Assembly: GCA_028282685.1 (NCBI GenBank)
Contig: JANQHK010000015.1
Location: 1 to 35,708 of the forward strand
DNA length: 35,708 nt
Direction of reading: 5' to 3'
Origin: Phycisphaeraceae bacterium
GTDB lineage: Bacteria > Planctomycetota > Phycisphaerae > Phycisphaerales > Zrk34
Part shown: positions 9,656-16,567 of the stretch, piece after piece
Layout: the number at the start of each line of letters is the position of its first letter
Numbering within the stretch: position 1 is the first letter of the stretch
Program-made: the position numbers and the translations under genes
Notes under the pieces: generated by a model
What the model was told of the DNA's origin: nothing
Seen by the model: the letters and a program-made list of their open reading frames with translations, nothing else
The model's database searches: none

Positions 9656-11965
9656 TTATCTCATAATTTCCAGCCGCGCGTATTCCAGGACAAGCGTCTT
9701 GACGCCGACGCGCTGGAATTGCACTTTGGCGCGCGCGTTCGGCCCCGCGCCGCCGACTGACACGACGGTGCCCACGCCGAATTGCGGATGACGCACGCGC
9801 AGGCCTTCCTGTAAACCGCTGTGATGGGGCTGCGCTGATCGGCGGGTTGTCGGGCCGCGATCGCGCGCTGCCGGGCGGAACCGCGGCGTCGGCCGTGCCA
9901 GTTCATCTTCAAACATGCCGCCGGCGCCGGACAGGTCCGTTATTTCCAGGCAGTTTTTGGGTAGTTCGCGCAGGAACTGGCTGGCGATGGTGCGCTCGCG
10001 GTAGCCGCGCATCGCGCGGTAGCGGGCGTGGGTCAGCAGCAACCGCTGTCGGGCGCGCGTGATGCCGACGAAGCAGAGCCGACGTTCCTCTTCCAACTCT
10101 TCCGGATTTTCAAACGCTCGGCTGTGCGGAAGCAGTCCTTCCTCCAGTCCCACAATCGCCACTGCCGGGAATTCCAACCCCTTTGCCGCGTGCAGCGTCA
10201 TCAGCGTGACCGCGCCCGCATCGTCTTCCATCGCATCCACATCGCTGACCAGCGACACCTGCTCCAGGTAATCGCCGACGCGCTGGGCGAGTGTGCGGTT
10301 TTCCTCACCGTATTCCTCGTCGAAGCGTTGTGCGGCGGTGATCAGTTCGTACAGGTTGGCCAGCTTGTCCTCGTCGGCGTCTTTGCCGTCCTTGTACATC
10401 GCCTCGAGGCCGGAGTCGCGGATGATCATCTCGACCACATCGCGCACGCTCGGCTCGAACATCAGGTCGTCACCATCCTGGTCCAGCTTGTTCCGCCAGG
10501 TTTGATACATCACAGAAAACTTGCCCGTGGCGGGGGCGGCGCGTCCGCGCACCACCCCTTCGCGCCGTGGATCGCCCAGGGCCTCGAACAATGTCATGCT
10601 TTGCGCTGCGGCAAAGGCCTGGAGGTGCTGCACCGAAGTGTCGCCGATACCGCGCCCGGGTGTGTTGATGATGCGCAGCAGCGACACTTCGTCCGCGGGG
10701 TTTGATAACACCTTCAGGTACGCCAGCGCGTCTTTGATCTCCTTGCGCTGGTAAAACGCGGTCCCGCGCACCACCTGGTACGGCACCGACGATTTCATCA
10801 GCGACTCCTCCAGCGCGCGCGTCAGCGCGTTCACGCGGTAGAAGATCGCCATGTCGGCCCAGCGCAGGTCCTGCTCGTGCAATTCCTTCAACCAACCGAC
10901 CGCCAGGTCCGCTTCGTGTTCTTCGTCGGCGGCATGGAAGCACGTCAGCTTCCGCCCGCCCGGCTGCGAGGTGAACAGCGGCTTGTGTTTGCGCTGCTTG
11001 TTGTGGCGGATCAGGTGGTCGGCGGCTTGGAGTATCTGCGGCGTGGAGCGGAAGTTTTCGCCCAGTTGAATCACGCGCGCCTCCGCGTAGCGCTGCTCGA
11101 ACTCGAGGATGTTGCGCAGGTTCGCCCCGCGCCAGCCGTAGATCGACTGATCGGGATCGCCCACCACGCAGATGTTGCGATGCGATGCCGAGAGCATGTT
11201 GGCGATGACGAACTGAGCGTGGTTGGTGTCCTGGTATTCGTCGATCAGCAGGTACTGGTAGCGGTCCTGCAATTCGGTGCGCACGGCTTCGTTGCGGCGG
11301 AGCAGGTTGGCCGTCAGCAGCAGCAGGTCGTCGAAGTCCACCGCGTTGTTGGCGCGCAACATCTGCTGATACTTCTGGTAAACCTTGGCGACGGTGCGCG
11401 CAAAGAAATCCCCGGCGTCGGCGGTGAAGGCGCGCTCGTCGGTCAATTCGTTCTTCGCTTTGGAAATGGCGCTGCGGATCGCTTCGGGTGCGAAGTTCTT
11501 TGGGCTGATGTCCAGCACTTTCATCGCGTCTTTGATCGCGCGCTTCTGGTCCGCCGTGTCGTAGATCGAGTAACCGGGCGGCAGGTTCACCTGCTCGGCG
11601 AACTCGCGCAACAACCGCGCGCACAACGAATGAAACGTGCAGATCGTCGCGGCGCGCGCCTGCCTGGCGCTGAGCAATTGCGCGATGCGCTCGCCCATCT
11701 CTCCCGCGGCCTTGTTGGTGAAGGTGATCGCCAGCACCTGCCACGGCGCCATGCCCACCTCGCGAACCAACCAGGCGATGCGGCGCGTGATCACGCGCGT
11801 CTTGCCCGAGCCCGCCGCCGCCAGCACCAGAAGCGGCCCTTCCGTGCAGACCACGGCGCTGCGCTGGGCGTCGGTCAGATCGGCCAGGAGGGGATGATCG
11901 GCGGGGGGCTCGGCGGGGGCCGGAGATGGCGGCGTGTTCGCGATGTCTTCCAGTGATCCATCCAT
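9656..11965 (-). CDS. pcrA: ATP-dependent DNA helicase, UvrD/PcrA type
   Basis: 769 residues. It is a superfamily 1A 3'-5' helicase for nucleotide excision and mismatch repair and for clearing protein or RNA obstacles from DNA. Motifs in order: Q motif LTDAQRSAV, Walker A AAAGSGKTR (about 49-57), TFTNKAAGEM (Ia), LLIDEYQDTN (II), VVGDPDQSIYGWRGA (III), LGENFRSTP (IV), TLHAAKGLEFPAV (V) and CFVGITRARQRL (VI). The last 55 residues (GLRVRHPQFGVGTVVSVGG through to LVLEYARLEIM) form the Tudor-like C-terminal domain that in PcrA/UvrD contacts RNA polymerase. The frame is open to 12022. I prefer the ATG at 11965 because the extra residues look non-conserved; neither start has a strong ribosome site. 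Overlap with rep-type helicases is possible, but the C-terminal domain favours PcrA. Confidence 0.93.
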   Translation of the reverse strand: MDGSLEDIANTPPSPAPAEPPADHPLLADLTDAQRSAVVCTEGPLLVLAAAGSGKTRVITRRIAWLVREVGMAPWQVLAITFTNKAAGEMGERIAQLLSARQARAATICTFHSLCARLLREFAEQVNLPPGYSIYDTADQKRAIKDAMKVLDISPKNFAPEAIRSAISKAKNELTDERAFTADAGDFFARTVAKVYQKYQQMLRANNAVDFDDLLLLTANLLRRNEAVRTELQDRYQYLLIDEYQDTNHAQFVIANMLSASHRNICVVGDPDQSIYGWRGANLRNILEFEQRYAEARVIQLGENFRSTPQILQAADHLIRHNKQRKHKPLFTSQPGGRKLTCFHAADEEHEADLAVGWLKELHEQDLRWADMAIFYRVNALTRALEESLMKSSVPYQVVRGTAFYQRKEIKDALAYLKVLSNPADEVSLLRIINTPGRGIGDTSVQHLQAFAAAQSMTLFEALGDPRREGVVRGRAAPATGKFSVMYQTWRNKLDQDGDDLMFEPSVRDVVEMIIRDSGLEAMYKDGKDADEDKLANLYELITAAQRFDEEYGEENRTLAQRVGDYLEQVSLVSDVDAMEDDAGAVTLMTLHAAKGLEFPAVAIVGLEEGLLPHSRAFENPEELEEERRLCFVGITRARQRLLLTHARYRAMRGYRERTIASQFLRELPKNCLEITDLSGAGGMFEDELARPTPRFRPAARDRGPTTRRSAQPHHSGLQEGLRVRHPQFGVGTVVSVGGAGPNARAKVQFQRVGVKTLVLEYARLEIMR

Positions 11966-12238
11966 GGTCGGTCGGGTGTTATCGGGCTTTTTCCAAGGGG
12001 CGCCCGGCACAGTGTAGCACACCGGGGCAAGTTACGTTTTTTTCGCTTGAAACAAGCTGAATTCGTGCCTAGCATGAGTTTTGTAAGACACCAGATGTTG
12101 TGGAAAACCTGACGAAATCGACAGGGCGAACACTACTTCTGGTGTTTTTGAAAAAATTTTGTCAACGGTAACAGGTCATCGATCCGACAGTTATGTTAAT
12201 GGGGCGTCAAACGGTGCCAGATTTTGTTAACAACGCGC

Positions 12239-12266
12239 TTGCATCCCCCATATTTGGGGCTATATT
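12239..12266 (+). promoter_or_regulatory. Candidate nrdJ promoter with operator-like repeat in the spacer
   Basis: TTGCAT (12239-12244), a 16-bp spacer and TATATT (12261-12266) form a plausible promoter. The spacer is almost filled by the inverted repeat CCCCA-TATT-TGGGG (12246-12259). Binding of any protein to it would block polymerase. The core is only loosely NrdR-like (about 9 of 16 consensus positions), so the regulator is not assigned. Transcription from here would give a leader of about 540 nt. Confidence 0.4.
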
Positions 12267-12362
12267 GGCTTTTGACTTGATTCAAGGTCGGTTCAGTTCT
12301 GGTGGAACTGCGACGTAGAGACCGGCCGACGAGAAACCCAAACCAAGCCCCCGGGCCGATTG

Positions 12363-12636
12363 ACCCGGAGAAAAACCGTTCGGTAACGGTTCGGGTTGTG
12401 GCATTGGCTTGAAGGGAATCATGGACGTGCGTCTGGACTTGGACAATCCGACCCAAAGCACCGGACGCACCGGGATGGATCGGCCCCGTGGGAGCGGGGG
12501 CCGGTGCCCGCAAGGGATTGGTTTTGCACCTCATCGCCAGGGGAGCTGGCGTTTGACTTGTGGCGGGCCTCAGTCGCCCGCCTCCGCTTAAGGCCCGGGC
12601 AAAGGGCCGAGGCCGCGTGTTCGTTTGAGCACGCGG
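12363..12636 (+). ncRNA. Structured 5' leader RNA of nrdJ (hairpin chain)
   Basis: Successive stems: ACCCG with CGGGT enclosing AACCGTT/AACGGTT on a CGGT loop (12363-12396); 12427-12436 with 12461-12470 (10 bp, one G-U) enclosing TTGGA/TCCGA; CGGCCCC 12481-12487 with 12497-12503; GGTGC 12503-12507 with GCACC 12526-12530; CGCCAG 12535-12540 with CTGGCG 12546-12551; GGCGGGC 12562-12568 with GCCCGCC 12576-12582; GGCCC 12592-12596 with GGGCC 12604-12608; CCGCGTG 12613-12619 with CACGCGG 12630-12636. No conserved B12-box is recognisable. As I recall, a published nrdJ RNA motif (Weinberg 2017 survey) precedes such genes in uncultured bacteria; I cannot confirm a match. A cis-regulatory role in dNTP or cobalamin control is inference. 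Confidence 0.5.
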
Positions 12637-12811
12637 CGTGTGTTGTTGCGAGCAGTGTGGTCACGGACCGCCACGATCCAGGGATGGGTCGATTCGGCGG
12701 GGGACAAAAGATGCAGACGGATGAAAAGATGACGACAGGCCGTCGACGGGTAAGGACGCCCGCCGAGCCGTGCACGCAGCGGAACTGATTTGAACGAGGT
12801 TGAAGTTCCCC

Positions 12812-15800
12812 ATGAAGATCGAACGCAAATTCACCAAGGCCGGCGAAGATGTTTTTGAGAGTATCGAGTGGGTGCGTCGTTCCAGCCGCATCGTTAACCC
12901 GGATGGCTCGGTGGTGTTCGAGATGAACGACGCCGAGGTGCCGGCGGGCTGGTCGCAACTGGCCACCGACATCATGGTCAGTAAGTATTTCCGCAAGGCC
13001 GGCGTCCCGCAGTACGACGCCGACGGGCAGGTGGTGACCGATGAGCACGACGAGGTGGTCACCGGGCCGGAACGTTCGGCGCGCCAGGTGATCGCCCGGC
13101 TGGCCGGGTGTTGGCGGTGGTGGGGTGAAAAATACGGCTACTTCGATTCCGAACAGGATGCGCAGGCGTTTTACGACGAGATCTGCCACACGCTGTTGCA
13201 CCAGATGGTCGCGCCCAACAGTCCGCAGTGGTTCAACACCGGTCTGCATTACGCCTACGGCATGACCGGTCCGGCGCAGGGCCACTGGTACACCGATCCG
13301 ACAACCGGCGAAACCAGACTGGCCGAGGACGCCTATTCCCATCCCCAACCGCACGCCTGTTTCATCCAGAGCGTGGATGACGATCTGGTCAACGAAGGCG
13401 GCATCATGGACCTGTGGGTGCGGGAGGCGCGGCTGTTCAAGTACGGCTCGGGCACGGGCACCAATTTCTCGCACCTGCGCGGCGACGGCGAACGGCTCAG
13501 CGGCGGGGGCCAGAGCAGCGGCCTGATGAGCTGGCTGAAGATCGGCGATCGCGCCGCCGGCGCCATCAAGTCCGGCGGGACCACGCGCCGCGCCGCCAAG
13601 ATGGTCTGTCTCGATCTCGACCACCCGGACATCGAGGATTTCGTCAACTGGAAGGTGCGCGAGGAACTGAAAGTCGCCGCGCTGGTCGAAGGCGTCAAGC
13701 AGCTCAGTGAAGACCAGAAGCGCGTTGCCGAGGAGTTGGGCCTGAAGCTCGATTACGATTTCAACGGCGAGGCCTACGCCACCGTCAGCGGGCAGAACGC
13801 CAACAATTCCGTCCGCATCCCCAACAGTTTCTTCAAAGCCCTGGACGAAGGGACCGACTGGGAACTGAACAACCGCGTGGATCACCGGGTCGCCCGTTCC
13901 GTGCCGGCGCGCCGCCTGTGGGATCAGATCGGGTTTGCCGCGTGGCGTTGTGCCGACCCCGGCGTGCAGTACGACACGACGATCAACCAATGGCACACCT
14001 GCCCGGAGTCGGGACGGATCAACGCCTCCAATCCGTGCAGCGAGTACATGTTCCTCGACAACACCGCCTGCAACCTGGCGTCGATCAACCTGCTGACGCT
14101 CTACGACGCCGAGAAGCAGACCTTCGACATTTCCGGTTACGAACACACCATCCGGCTTTGGACGATGGTGCTGGAAATCAGCGTGTTGATGGCGGCGTTC
14201 CCGAGCAAGGAAATTGCGCGGCTCAGCTACGAGTTCCGCACGCTGGGGCTGGGTTACGCCAATCTCGGGGCGATGCTGATGCAGGCCGGCGTTCCGTACG
14301 ACAGCGATCTCGGCCGCGCCCTGGCCGGCACGTTGGCGGCGGTGATGACCGGCCGGTCGTACGCGACCAGCGCCGAGATGGCCGAAGAACTGGGCCCGTT
14401 CCCCAGCTACTTCCGCAACCGCGATCACATGCTGCGCGTGGTGCGCAACCACCGCCGCGCCGCTTACGGGGTGCCGCGGGAGCGCGATGCCGCCGCCGGA
14501 CATGAACTGGGCTACTACGAGGGCCTGGAGATCACGCCCGTGCCGATCGACGCGTCGGTCATCGAGCATCCGACCCACGCCTGCAACGGTCTGCACAACG
14601 GCGAGGAACTGCTCACCGCCGCACGGCGCAGTTGGGATGATGCCTTCAAGCTCGGCAAGGCCCACGGCTTCCGCAACGCCCAAGCCACCGTCATCGCGCC
14701 CACCGGCACGATCGGCCTGCTCATGGATTGCGATACCACCGGCGTCGAACCGGACTTCGCGCTGGTCAAGTTCAAGAAGCTGGCCGGGGGCGGGTATTTC
14801 AAGATCGCCAACCAATCGCTGCGCCCCGCCCTGCGCTCCCTGGGATATGACACCACGCAGATCGATCAGATCATGAACTACGTCATGGGCAGCGGGGATC
14901 TGAACGTCACCATGCCCGGCGACGACGGCGCGGCGCCCGGCAATCCCACCGATACCTTTGCCGATTTTCTTCGCGCCCGCGGCGCCAGCGATGACGATCT
15001 GGCCAAGATCACCCAATCGCTCGGCTCGGCGCTGGAACTGGGCTTCGTCTTCAATGCGTACACGCTGGGCGAAGCGGCGATGAAGCGGATGGGGCTGGAA
15101 GGCCGGCCCGATCCCCTGCGCGCCCTGGAACTGTCGCGCAAGCAGATCGCCAAACTGAACGAGATGATCTGCGGCACCGGCGCCATCGAAGGCGCGCCGC
15201 ATATGAAGGACGAGCACCTGCCGGTGTTCGATTGTGCCAACCGCTGCGGCAAGACGGGCAAACGTTTCATCGCGCCCACCGGCCACATTCGCATGATGGG
15301 CGCGGTGCAGCCGTTCATCAGCGGGGCGATCAGCAAGACGATCAATCTGCCGCACGAGGCGACGGTCGACGAGATCAAACAGGCCTACCGCCTGAGCTGG
15401 GAGTTGGGTCTGAAGGCGAACGCGCTGTATCGCGACGGCTCGAAGCTCAGCCAGCCGCTCAGCGCTACCGCCGATGGAGCCGAGGACGATGACGAGGAGG
15501 CGATCGAAGCGGCAAAAAAAGAGGTTACTGCCGAGGTCTCTACGGTGGCCAGCCGGATTGCGCATGCGGAGACTGACACCGACGCGGACTCGGCACAGGG
15601 CCCGGTGGAAAAAATCGTCGAGCGCATCGTCGAACGTCCGTTGCGCCGCCGACTGCCCGCCACGCGCAACAGCATCACCCACAAGTTCAACGTCGCCGGA
15701 CACGAGGGATACCTGACCGTCGGTCTGTACGACGACGGCATGCCCGGGGAGTTGTTCATCACGATGGCCAAGGAGGGCTCGACGATCGGGGGACTGATGG

Positions 15801-16567
15801 ATTCGCTGGGCACGGCGATCAGCGTGGCGATGCAGTACGGCGTGCCGATCGATTCCCTGGTGCACAAGTTCACGCACCAGCGGTTCGAGCCGGCCGGCAT
15901 GACCGACAACAAGGAAATCCCCTTCGCCAAGTCGCTGGTCGATTACATCTTCCGCTGGCTGGGGATGGAGTTCATCCCCGGCTATCGCGAAGCCAATGGC
16001 CCCAAGCGCCCGGACAGCAAGCCGGCCAAGTCCGCGCCGGTGACTGGGGCCGGGGCCAAGGCCGCGGAAACGCGCCCGCGCGCCGCGGCGGCGGCGAAAA
16101 CCACCACGATGCAGCAAAGCCGCGGGAAGGAGCCGACGGCTGACGATCGCACCGGCGCAGGTCAGGGAAGCCCTGCGCCGGTTCCCGTGAATCGATTGCG
16201 CGGCGAAAAAGAGGCCGAGCCTGCCGCGCCGCGCATCCGACGCATCGATCAGGACAAGCCGGCCGAAGCGGCCAAGCCGTCTGACGCGGATACCGCCGCC
16301 CCGCGCGGTGTCGATGATCCGCATCTGGCGACGCAGCACCAGGCCAACACCGGTCCGCTGGCGGTGCTGCAGAAGAGCGCCGGCACGGTTTTGGCGACCG
16401 CCGATCGACAGAACGCCACCGCCGCGGCGCTGGTCGGCTCCCTCAACGAAGCCAACAGCCAGATGATGGGCGATGCCCCGGCGTGCGATGTCTGCGGATC
16501 CATCACCGTCCGCAACGGCACCTGCTACAAGGGCCTGAACTGCGGCAACTCGATGGGATGCTCTTAA
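12812..16567 (+). CDS. nrdJ: Adenosylcobalamin-dependent (class II) ribonucleotide reductase
   Basis: 1251 residues. It reduces ribonucleotides to deoxyribonucleotides, using coenzyme B12 to generate a thiyl radical, so it works with or without oxygen. The redox pair is Cys183 (PHACFIQS) and Cys420 (DNTACNLASINL). The radical Cys409 and Glu411 lie in NASNPCSEY; the 11-residue gap between 409 and 420 equals that in Thermotoga NrdJ. PTGTIG lies in the barrel end. A C-terminal TSCPD-type domain (about 950-1060) is followed by a low-complexity Ala/Pro/Lys-rich linker (about 1064-1170) and a cysteine-rich tail (CDVC, then four more Cys in the last 20 residues) that probably re-reduces the active site. 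The ATG at 12812 fits the family start MKIERKFTKAGED; a TTG at 12800 is in frame but has no ribosome-site spacing. Confidence 0.95.
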   Translation: MKIERKFTKAGEDVFESIEWVRRSSRIVNPDGSVVFEMNDAEVPAGWSQLATDIMVSKYFRKAGVPQYDADGQVVTDEHDEVVTGPERSARQVIARLAGCWRWWGEKYGYFDSEQDAQAFYDEICHTLLHQMVAPNSPQWFNTGLHYAYGMTGPAQGHWYTDPTTGETRLAEDAYSHPQPHACFIQSVDDDLVNEGGIMDLWVREARLFKYGSGTGTNFSHLRGDGERLSGGGQSSGLMSWLKIGDRAAGAIKSGGTTRRAAKMVCLDLDHPDIEDFVNWKVREELKVAALVEGVKQLSEDQKRVAEELGLKLDYDFNGEAYATVSGQNANNSVRIPNSFFKALDEGTDWELNNRVDHRVARSVPARRLWDQIGFAAWRCADPGVQYDTTINQWHTCPESGRINASNPCSEYMFLDNTACNLASINLLTLYDAEKQTFDISGYEHTIRLWTMVLEISVLMAAFPSKEIARLSYEFRTLGLGYANLGAMLMQAGVPYDSDLGRALAGTLAAVMTGRSYATSAEMAEELGPFPSYFRNRDHMLRVVRNHRRAAYGVPRERDAAAGHELGYYEGLEITPVPIDASVIEHPTHACNGLHNGEELLTAARRSWDDAFKLGKAHGFRNAQATVIAPTGTIGLLMDCDTTGVEPDFALVKFKKLAGGGYFKIANQSLRPALRSLGYDTTQIDQIMNYVMGSGDLNVTMPGDDGAAPGNPTDTFADFLRARGASDDDLAKITQSLGSALELGFVFNAYTLGEAAMKRMGLEGRPDPLRALELSRKQIAKLNEMICGTGAIEGAPHMKDEHLPVFDCANRCGKTGKRFIAPTGHIRMMGAVQPFISGAISKTINLPHEATVDEIKQAYRLSWELGLKANALYRDGSKLSQPLSATADGAEDDDEEAIEAAKKEVTAEVSTVASRIAHAETDTDADSAQGPVEKIVERIVERPLRRRLPATRNSITHKFNVAGHEGYLTVGLYDDGMPGELFITMAKEGSTIGGLMDSLGTAISVAMQYGVPIDSLVHKFTHQRFEPAGMTDNKEIPFAKSLVDYIFRWLGMEFIPGYREANGPKRPDSKPAKSAPVTGAGAKAAETRPRAAAAAKTTTMQQSRGKEPTADDRTGAGQGSPAPVPVNRLRGEKEAEPAAPRIRRIDQDKPAEAAKPSDADTAAPRGVDDPHLATQHQANTGPLAVLQKSAGTVLATADRQNATAAALVGSLNEANSQMMGDAPACDVCGSITVRNGTCYKGLNCGNSMGCS

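Follow-up and report, generated by a model that had tools for sequence, protein, structure and literature searches.

A conserved candidate CsrA-binding hairpin in the nrdJ mRNA leader of Phycisphaerales

What controls the class II (adenosylcobalamin-dependent) ribonucleotide reductase gene nrdJ, and what its long upstream region contributes to that control, are the questions raised by the locus described here. The window, i.e. the whole 35,708-nt stretch of DNA that we analysed, comes from a Phycisphaerales genome, and its nearest NrdJ relatives are Phycisphaeraceae/Phycisphaerales records. The nrdJ gene lies at 12812–16567 on the forward strand, with a start ATG that aligns with those of its relatives, and is separated by an intergenic gap of approximately 790 bp from a uvrD/pcrA-like gene (9656–12022) in the opposite orientation. 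A promoter-like site, TTAACA-16-CATATT (12227–12254, forward strand), was recognized solely as a consensus match, at nine of 12 positions, and the region at 12363–12636 is presumably transcribed. Most of the relatives whose nrdJ leaders were compared have only a short gap upstream of nrdJ; many (e.g. L007, L013, L024, L028, L032 and L033) carry a dCTP deaminase-like (dcd) gene immediately 5′ of it, which is absent from that place in the window. We also observed that the nrdJ matches of three other genomes (G016:C37, G046:C60 and G022:C1) are interrupted by approximately 1 kb within a single open frame of 1400–1600 amino acids, as intein-like insertions. In the present analysis we propose, with a probability of roughly 0.75, that CsrA targets the mRNA leader of nrdJ and that this is conserved in two Phycisphaerales families; CsrA would thereby repress nrdJ, and FliW would relieve that repression.

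A covarying ANGGAN hairpin upstream of nrdJ

The main conserved element is an ANGGAN hexaloop hairpin at 12742–12767 on the forward strand, GTCGACGGGU-AAGGAC-GCCCGCCGAG, a candidate CsrA site supported by covariation, with a loop that begins 60 nt upstream of the ATG. We read 110 nrdJ leaders, of which 38 belong to the two closest Phycisphaerales families, f1 and f6, and applied a strict definition (an ANGGAN hexaloop on a stem of at least 7 bp, with no more than one mismatch, located between −110 and −25). Such a hairpin is present in 18 of the 38 leaders, against a mean of 0.1 and a maximum of 1 in dinucleotide shuffles, and mostly lies 50–85 nt upstream of the start codon. About half of the f1 and f6 leaders thus fail the strict definition, and looser versions, bulged, larger in the loop or placed further upstream, were found in G002, G004, G003, G069, G108, G120 and G045. 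When all hexaloop hairpins of these two families are considered, 20 out of 33 carry ANGGAN. Elsewhere in the order one of 72 leaders has the strict hairpin, and beyond the order an ANGGAN hairpin is absent from all of the 40 additional nrdJ leaders.

Nineteen nrdJ hairpins align without gaps, and 91% of their pair cells are standard pairs, a percentage favoured by the choice of rows on loop pattern and pairing. Two-sided changes occur in 52 cells and affect eight of the nine stem pairs, and the covariation score is 0.917, compared with 0.283 when shuffled and no more than 0.26 with the partner strand slid. The loop bases A, G, G and A are invariant, and so is the closing G immediately 3′ of the loop, a position that formed no part of the selection; the closing pair is U-G in 11 and C-G in eight. 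Neither the variety of pair types nor the dominance of ANGGAN among hexaloops is fixed by the choice of loop. Sequence comparison thereby establishes the hairpin and where it lies, as well as the invariance of its loop and the covariation of its stem, and the hairpin is also present in the held-out cases (the G120 nrdJ leader, L126 and L130). Chance origin is ruled out by the shuffles, the permuted loops and the control gene fba, before which none of 19 leaders has this hairpin type. A role as the terminator of the upstream gene was likewise rejected, as no T run follows the hairpin and the loop, rather than the stem alone, is conserved.

A second ANGGAN hairpin in the window, CGATCC-AGGGAT-GGGTCG (12674–12691, forward strand), has a 6 bp stem and a predicted formation probability near 1, and is a further candidate CsrA site. 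A possible third, ACGGAC in an 8-nt loop (GUGGU-CACGGACC-GCCAC; 12656–12675, forward strand), lies 17 nt 5′ of the second and is weaker, with a competing fold predicted, and an ACGGAT motif at 12717–12722 of the same strand has no hairpin of its own. In total the leader (12275–12811) holds eight ANGGAN motifs, compared with approximately 1.5 predicted from the rate in a 294 kb sample of the same genome (1592 in 589 kb, both strands counted); throughout that sample ANGGAN hairpins show no excess over permuted loops. No ANGGA in the window overlaps the ribosome-binding site, and the main hairpin is also clear of it. The predicted minimum fold lacks the main hairpin, whose 3′ arm (12759–12767) pairs instead with approximately 12691–12702; this alternative pairing could be a switch shifted by CsrA, or could mean that the hairpin on its own is weak here. 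Model R1, which we built on the nrdJ hairpins, finds its best match in this genome at 12742–12767 (26.4 bits), a sequence that belongs to its own training set. Its other matches there lie inside long open frames (e.g. a ptsH-like one), so a second target in this genome is not established.

In families f3 and f5, ACGGA is enriched near −20 of the nrdJ leaders, a position at which overlap with the ribosome-binding site is conceivable, although this is suggestive only; ANGGA stands at about −20 in many of these leaders and at −27 in G069, G072 and G108. Further motif clusters were seen in individual relatives. The region from approximately −420 to −230 of nrdJ in L130 is dense in ANGGA motifs, several of them in hairpins, and resembles a multi-site CsrA platform, and the G084 nrdJ leader (L047) has a row of ACGGAC/ACGGAA motifs just 5′ of the gene, in which hairpins are not clear.

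CsrA, FliW and the leaders of csrA

Together with its flanks, the loop of the nrdJ hairpin reads (C/U)ANGGANG and matches the published high-affinity CsrA/RsmE hexaloop of that form (PMC4894983, PMC4005645 and PMC7652899), and the loop and closing base match those of the CANGGANG hexaloop (PMC4894983). High affinity has been described for an ANGGAX hexaloop set directly on a stem (PMC4005645), and the ANGGA hexaloops of the nrdJ leaders sit directly on their stems, as in known CsrA/RsmE sites (PMC4005645 and PMC4894983). Most SELEX ligands had stems shorter than the 7–10 bp seen here (PMC7652899).

CsrA is encoded in all 121 genomes searched and is present throughout the order. In the genome of the window, csrA (C92:1017–1172) and fliW (C92:1353–1706) stand in the order flgL-fliW-csrA-flagellin, the outer genes, for a flagellar hook-associated protein on one side and flagellin on the other, being named from their translations. 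Genes arranged in this way are known for translational repression that FliW relieves (PMC7652899). The encoded CsrA begins MLVLSRQ and retains the VHRKE stretch. Among the solved CsrA/RsmE chains that it matches is the set of 2jpp, which is the complex of RsmE with hcnA RNA; as judged by sequence, a CsrA with the RNA-binding fold is present in the same cell. Comparison also establishes that the hairpin type is shared with csrA itself, as the csrA leaders of 11 out of 20 genomes (L266–L285) have an ANGGAN hairpin, against 0.045 in shuffles, with covariation of its own. Beside this hairpin, the csrA leaders of many relatives carry AAGGA, AAGGAAGGAG, at the ribosome-binding site, and csrA is likely to regulate itself. 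The csrA leader in the genome of the window has no hexaloop hairpin and carries AAGGAAGGAG at its ribosome-binding site. Model R1 also scores the G120 csrA leader, at 22.4 bits. In addition, a hairpin of the R1 type at G087:C163:7433–7458 (L254), 54 nt 5′ of a flagellar rod-protein-like gene, may mark a further CsrA target.

A site that overlaps the ribosome-binding site is common in CsrA-repressed targets, but is not required of every site. As the nrdJ hairpin stands away from the ribosome-binding site, as CsrA is also encoded in families without the hairpin and as CsrA binding is predicted here from sequence, the hairpin might instead bind another factor, or stabilize the mRNA with a loop fixed for other reasons, CsrA being incidental. 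We consider this unlikely, since a known CsrA/RsmE ligand has this loop and closing pair, and since csrA in the same genomes is preceded by the same hairpin.

The upstream hairpin chain and the promoter

A sequence-only reading of this DNA had proposed that the nrdJ leader contains a cis-regulatory RNA, a chain of strong hairpins at 12363–12636 (forward strand). The proposal stands in kind and moves in place, as the element that supports it is the hairpin at 12742–12767 (with those at 12674–12691 and 12656–12675), outside the chain. Hairpins are indeed present in the chain, the figure of ‘at least eight stems’ being reached by counting interrupted ones; perfect Watson–Crick hairpins of at least 6 bp number three, compared with 0.6 expected, and three of 200 shuffles reach this number. 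That pairing there is far above that of GC-rich DNA is not borne out by the total minimum free energy (−125.4 kcal/mol compared with a shuffled mean of −118.7; z −1.38, 19 of 200 shuffles as good, and z −1.30 in a repeat run), but is borne out when pairs are restricted to 40 nt or less (−117.5 compared with −96.0; z −3.38, none of 200 shuffles). Across 29 equally long control segments of the window, the lowest short-range z was −2.26. The reverse strand is equally extreme (z −3.61), so the short-range excess alone does not tell which strand acts. ANGGA motifs occur in the chain at 12413, 12421, 12475 and 12513, none of the four in a hexaloop.

No counterpart of 12363–12636 was recognizable in relatives: a comparison of the leader DNA with 200 of them gave four short matches, which on inspection were GC-rich chance matches. 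The covariation among relatives expected of the listed stems therefore cannot be found, as these stems have no recognizable counterpart in which to test it. Other long nrdJ leaders are hairpin-dense in G004, L130 and G013 (z −3.4, −3.6 and −2.4) and ordinary in G003 and G075 (z −1.4 and −0.9). The chain is thus a real local feature found in this genome only, and its conservation is not supported. If CsrA targets this long structured leader, the chain is best explained as an upstream portion of it that is not conserved.

At the end of the chain, a terminator-like hairpin (12612–12637, forward strand) has 11 pairs and a weak T tail, GTGTGTTGTT, with no continuous T run. An intrinsic terminator consists of a GC-rich hairpin followed by a T run. 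The chain and this hairpin could form a transcription attenuator, with or without CsrA, and the hairpin density of the long leaders of G004, L130 and G013 fits such an arrangement; given the T-poor tail, the ordinary folding of the long leaders of G003 and G075 and the failure to find a conserved anti-terminator, this is unlikely.

Nearer the uvrD/pcrA-like gene, two NrdR-box-like palindromes, ACACCAGATGTTGTGG (12088–12103) and ACACTACTTCTGGTGT (12130–12145), lie 42 bp apart on the forward strand with one mismatch each, and are the only such sites of this quality in the window; a weaker pair near 12214 and 12245, 31 bp apart, was noticed by eye. An nrdR gene is present in the same genome. These two upstream palindromes and the nrdR gene resemble the NrdR-box promoters of ribonucleotide reductase genes, a transcriptional layer of control, although the 42 bp spacing differs from the usual distance of about three helical turns. 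Transcription of nrdJ is probably under NrdR control. That NrdR at the promoter is the sole control, with a passive leader, draws on the same boxes and gene but is improbable, as it leaves the conserved RNA hairpin 3′ of the promoter unexplained; NrdR control is, moreover, compatible with that by CsrA.

The chain had also been suggested to sense cobalamin or nucleotides, whereas the conserved element proves to be of the CsrA-binding-site type. A cobalamin riboswitch or other known RNA family finds no backing in Rfam: nothing in the leader reached gathering score against 4227 models, among which the nrdJ motif was perhaps not included, and an E-value of up to 10 gave two chance matches on the minus strand. 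A riboswitch or other metabolite-sensing leader in the chain, for which its unusual short-range folding (z −3.4) and the B12-dependence of the nrdJ product might speak, is very improbable in view of the lack of an Rfam match and of any sequence counterpart in 200 relatives, the equally structured other strand and the short gap before nrdJ in most relatives, and neither a riboswitch nor a conserved RNA class finds support at 12363–12636.

Proposed mechanism and known systems

In the mechanism that we favour, a CsrA dimer would bind the high-affinity ANGGAN hexaloop hairpin approximately 60 nt before the nrdJ start codon, with one or two extra sites 70–90 nt further upstream assisting in this genome. 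We infer CsrA binding, the direction of its effect and the role of FliW from the features described above. Once bound, CsrA would most likely lower nrdJ translation, either by bridging leader hairpins or by changing the structure of the leader close to the ribosome-binding site. With the main hairpin 45–85 nt from the start codon, repression would require a bridge to a weaker site or such a change of structure, and CsrA might conceivably activate nrdJ instead. FliW, encoded beside csrA with flagellin, would relieve the repression, and the supply of dNTPs would then depend on how the flagellar/CsrA switch is set, as well as on transcriptional control by NrdR.

These features make nrdJ a new, conserved candidate target of an already known regulator. 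A wider and decidedly tentative reading is that the CsrA–FliW flagellar switch controls a DNA-precursor enzyme in Phycisphaerales, so that motility and replication readiness are coupled through one RNA-binding protein, with csrA and nrdJ sharing a type of leader hairpin. In the titles and abstract openings of the papers screened we found neither a CsrA regulon in planctomycetes nor CsrA control of ribonucleotide reductase. A conserved, covarying and loop-invariant site at a DNA-precursor enzyme, shared with csrA, provides a starting point for experiments on post-transcriptional control in planctomycetes and prompts the question of whether these bacteria couple motility to DNA replication.

The nrdJ RNA motif and cobalamin riboswitches are positioned 5′ of class II reductase or B12-related genes. 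The present leader differs from them in giving no match at the thresholds tried and in being a plain hairpin with the loop of a protein site. The best-known CsrA regulons are those of Gammaproteobacteria, Campylobacter and Bacillus. The nrdJ leaders resemble Campylobacter jejuni flaA and Bacillus subtilis hag, where FliW is the antagonist, in having 5′ leader ANGGA hexaloop hairpins with compensatory changes and a csrA gene that adjoins fliW and flagellin (PMC4894983 and PMC7652899). Unlike in those systems, the target is a ribonucleotide reductase instead of a flagellin, CsrA binding is predicted and the main hairpin lies 45–85 nt upstream of the start codon rather than over the ribosome-binding site. 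The RsmE sites of Pseudomonas hcnA and RsmZ also have an ANGGAX hexaloop directly on the stem, closed there by C-G (PMC4005645), whereas the nrdJ hairpins are closed by U-G more often than by C-G, have a longer stem and occur in a different phylum, in an mRNA leader that is conserved.
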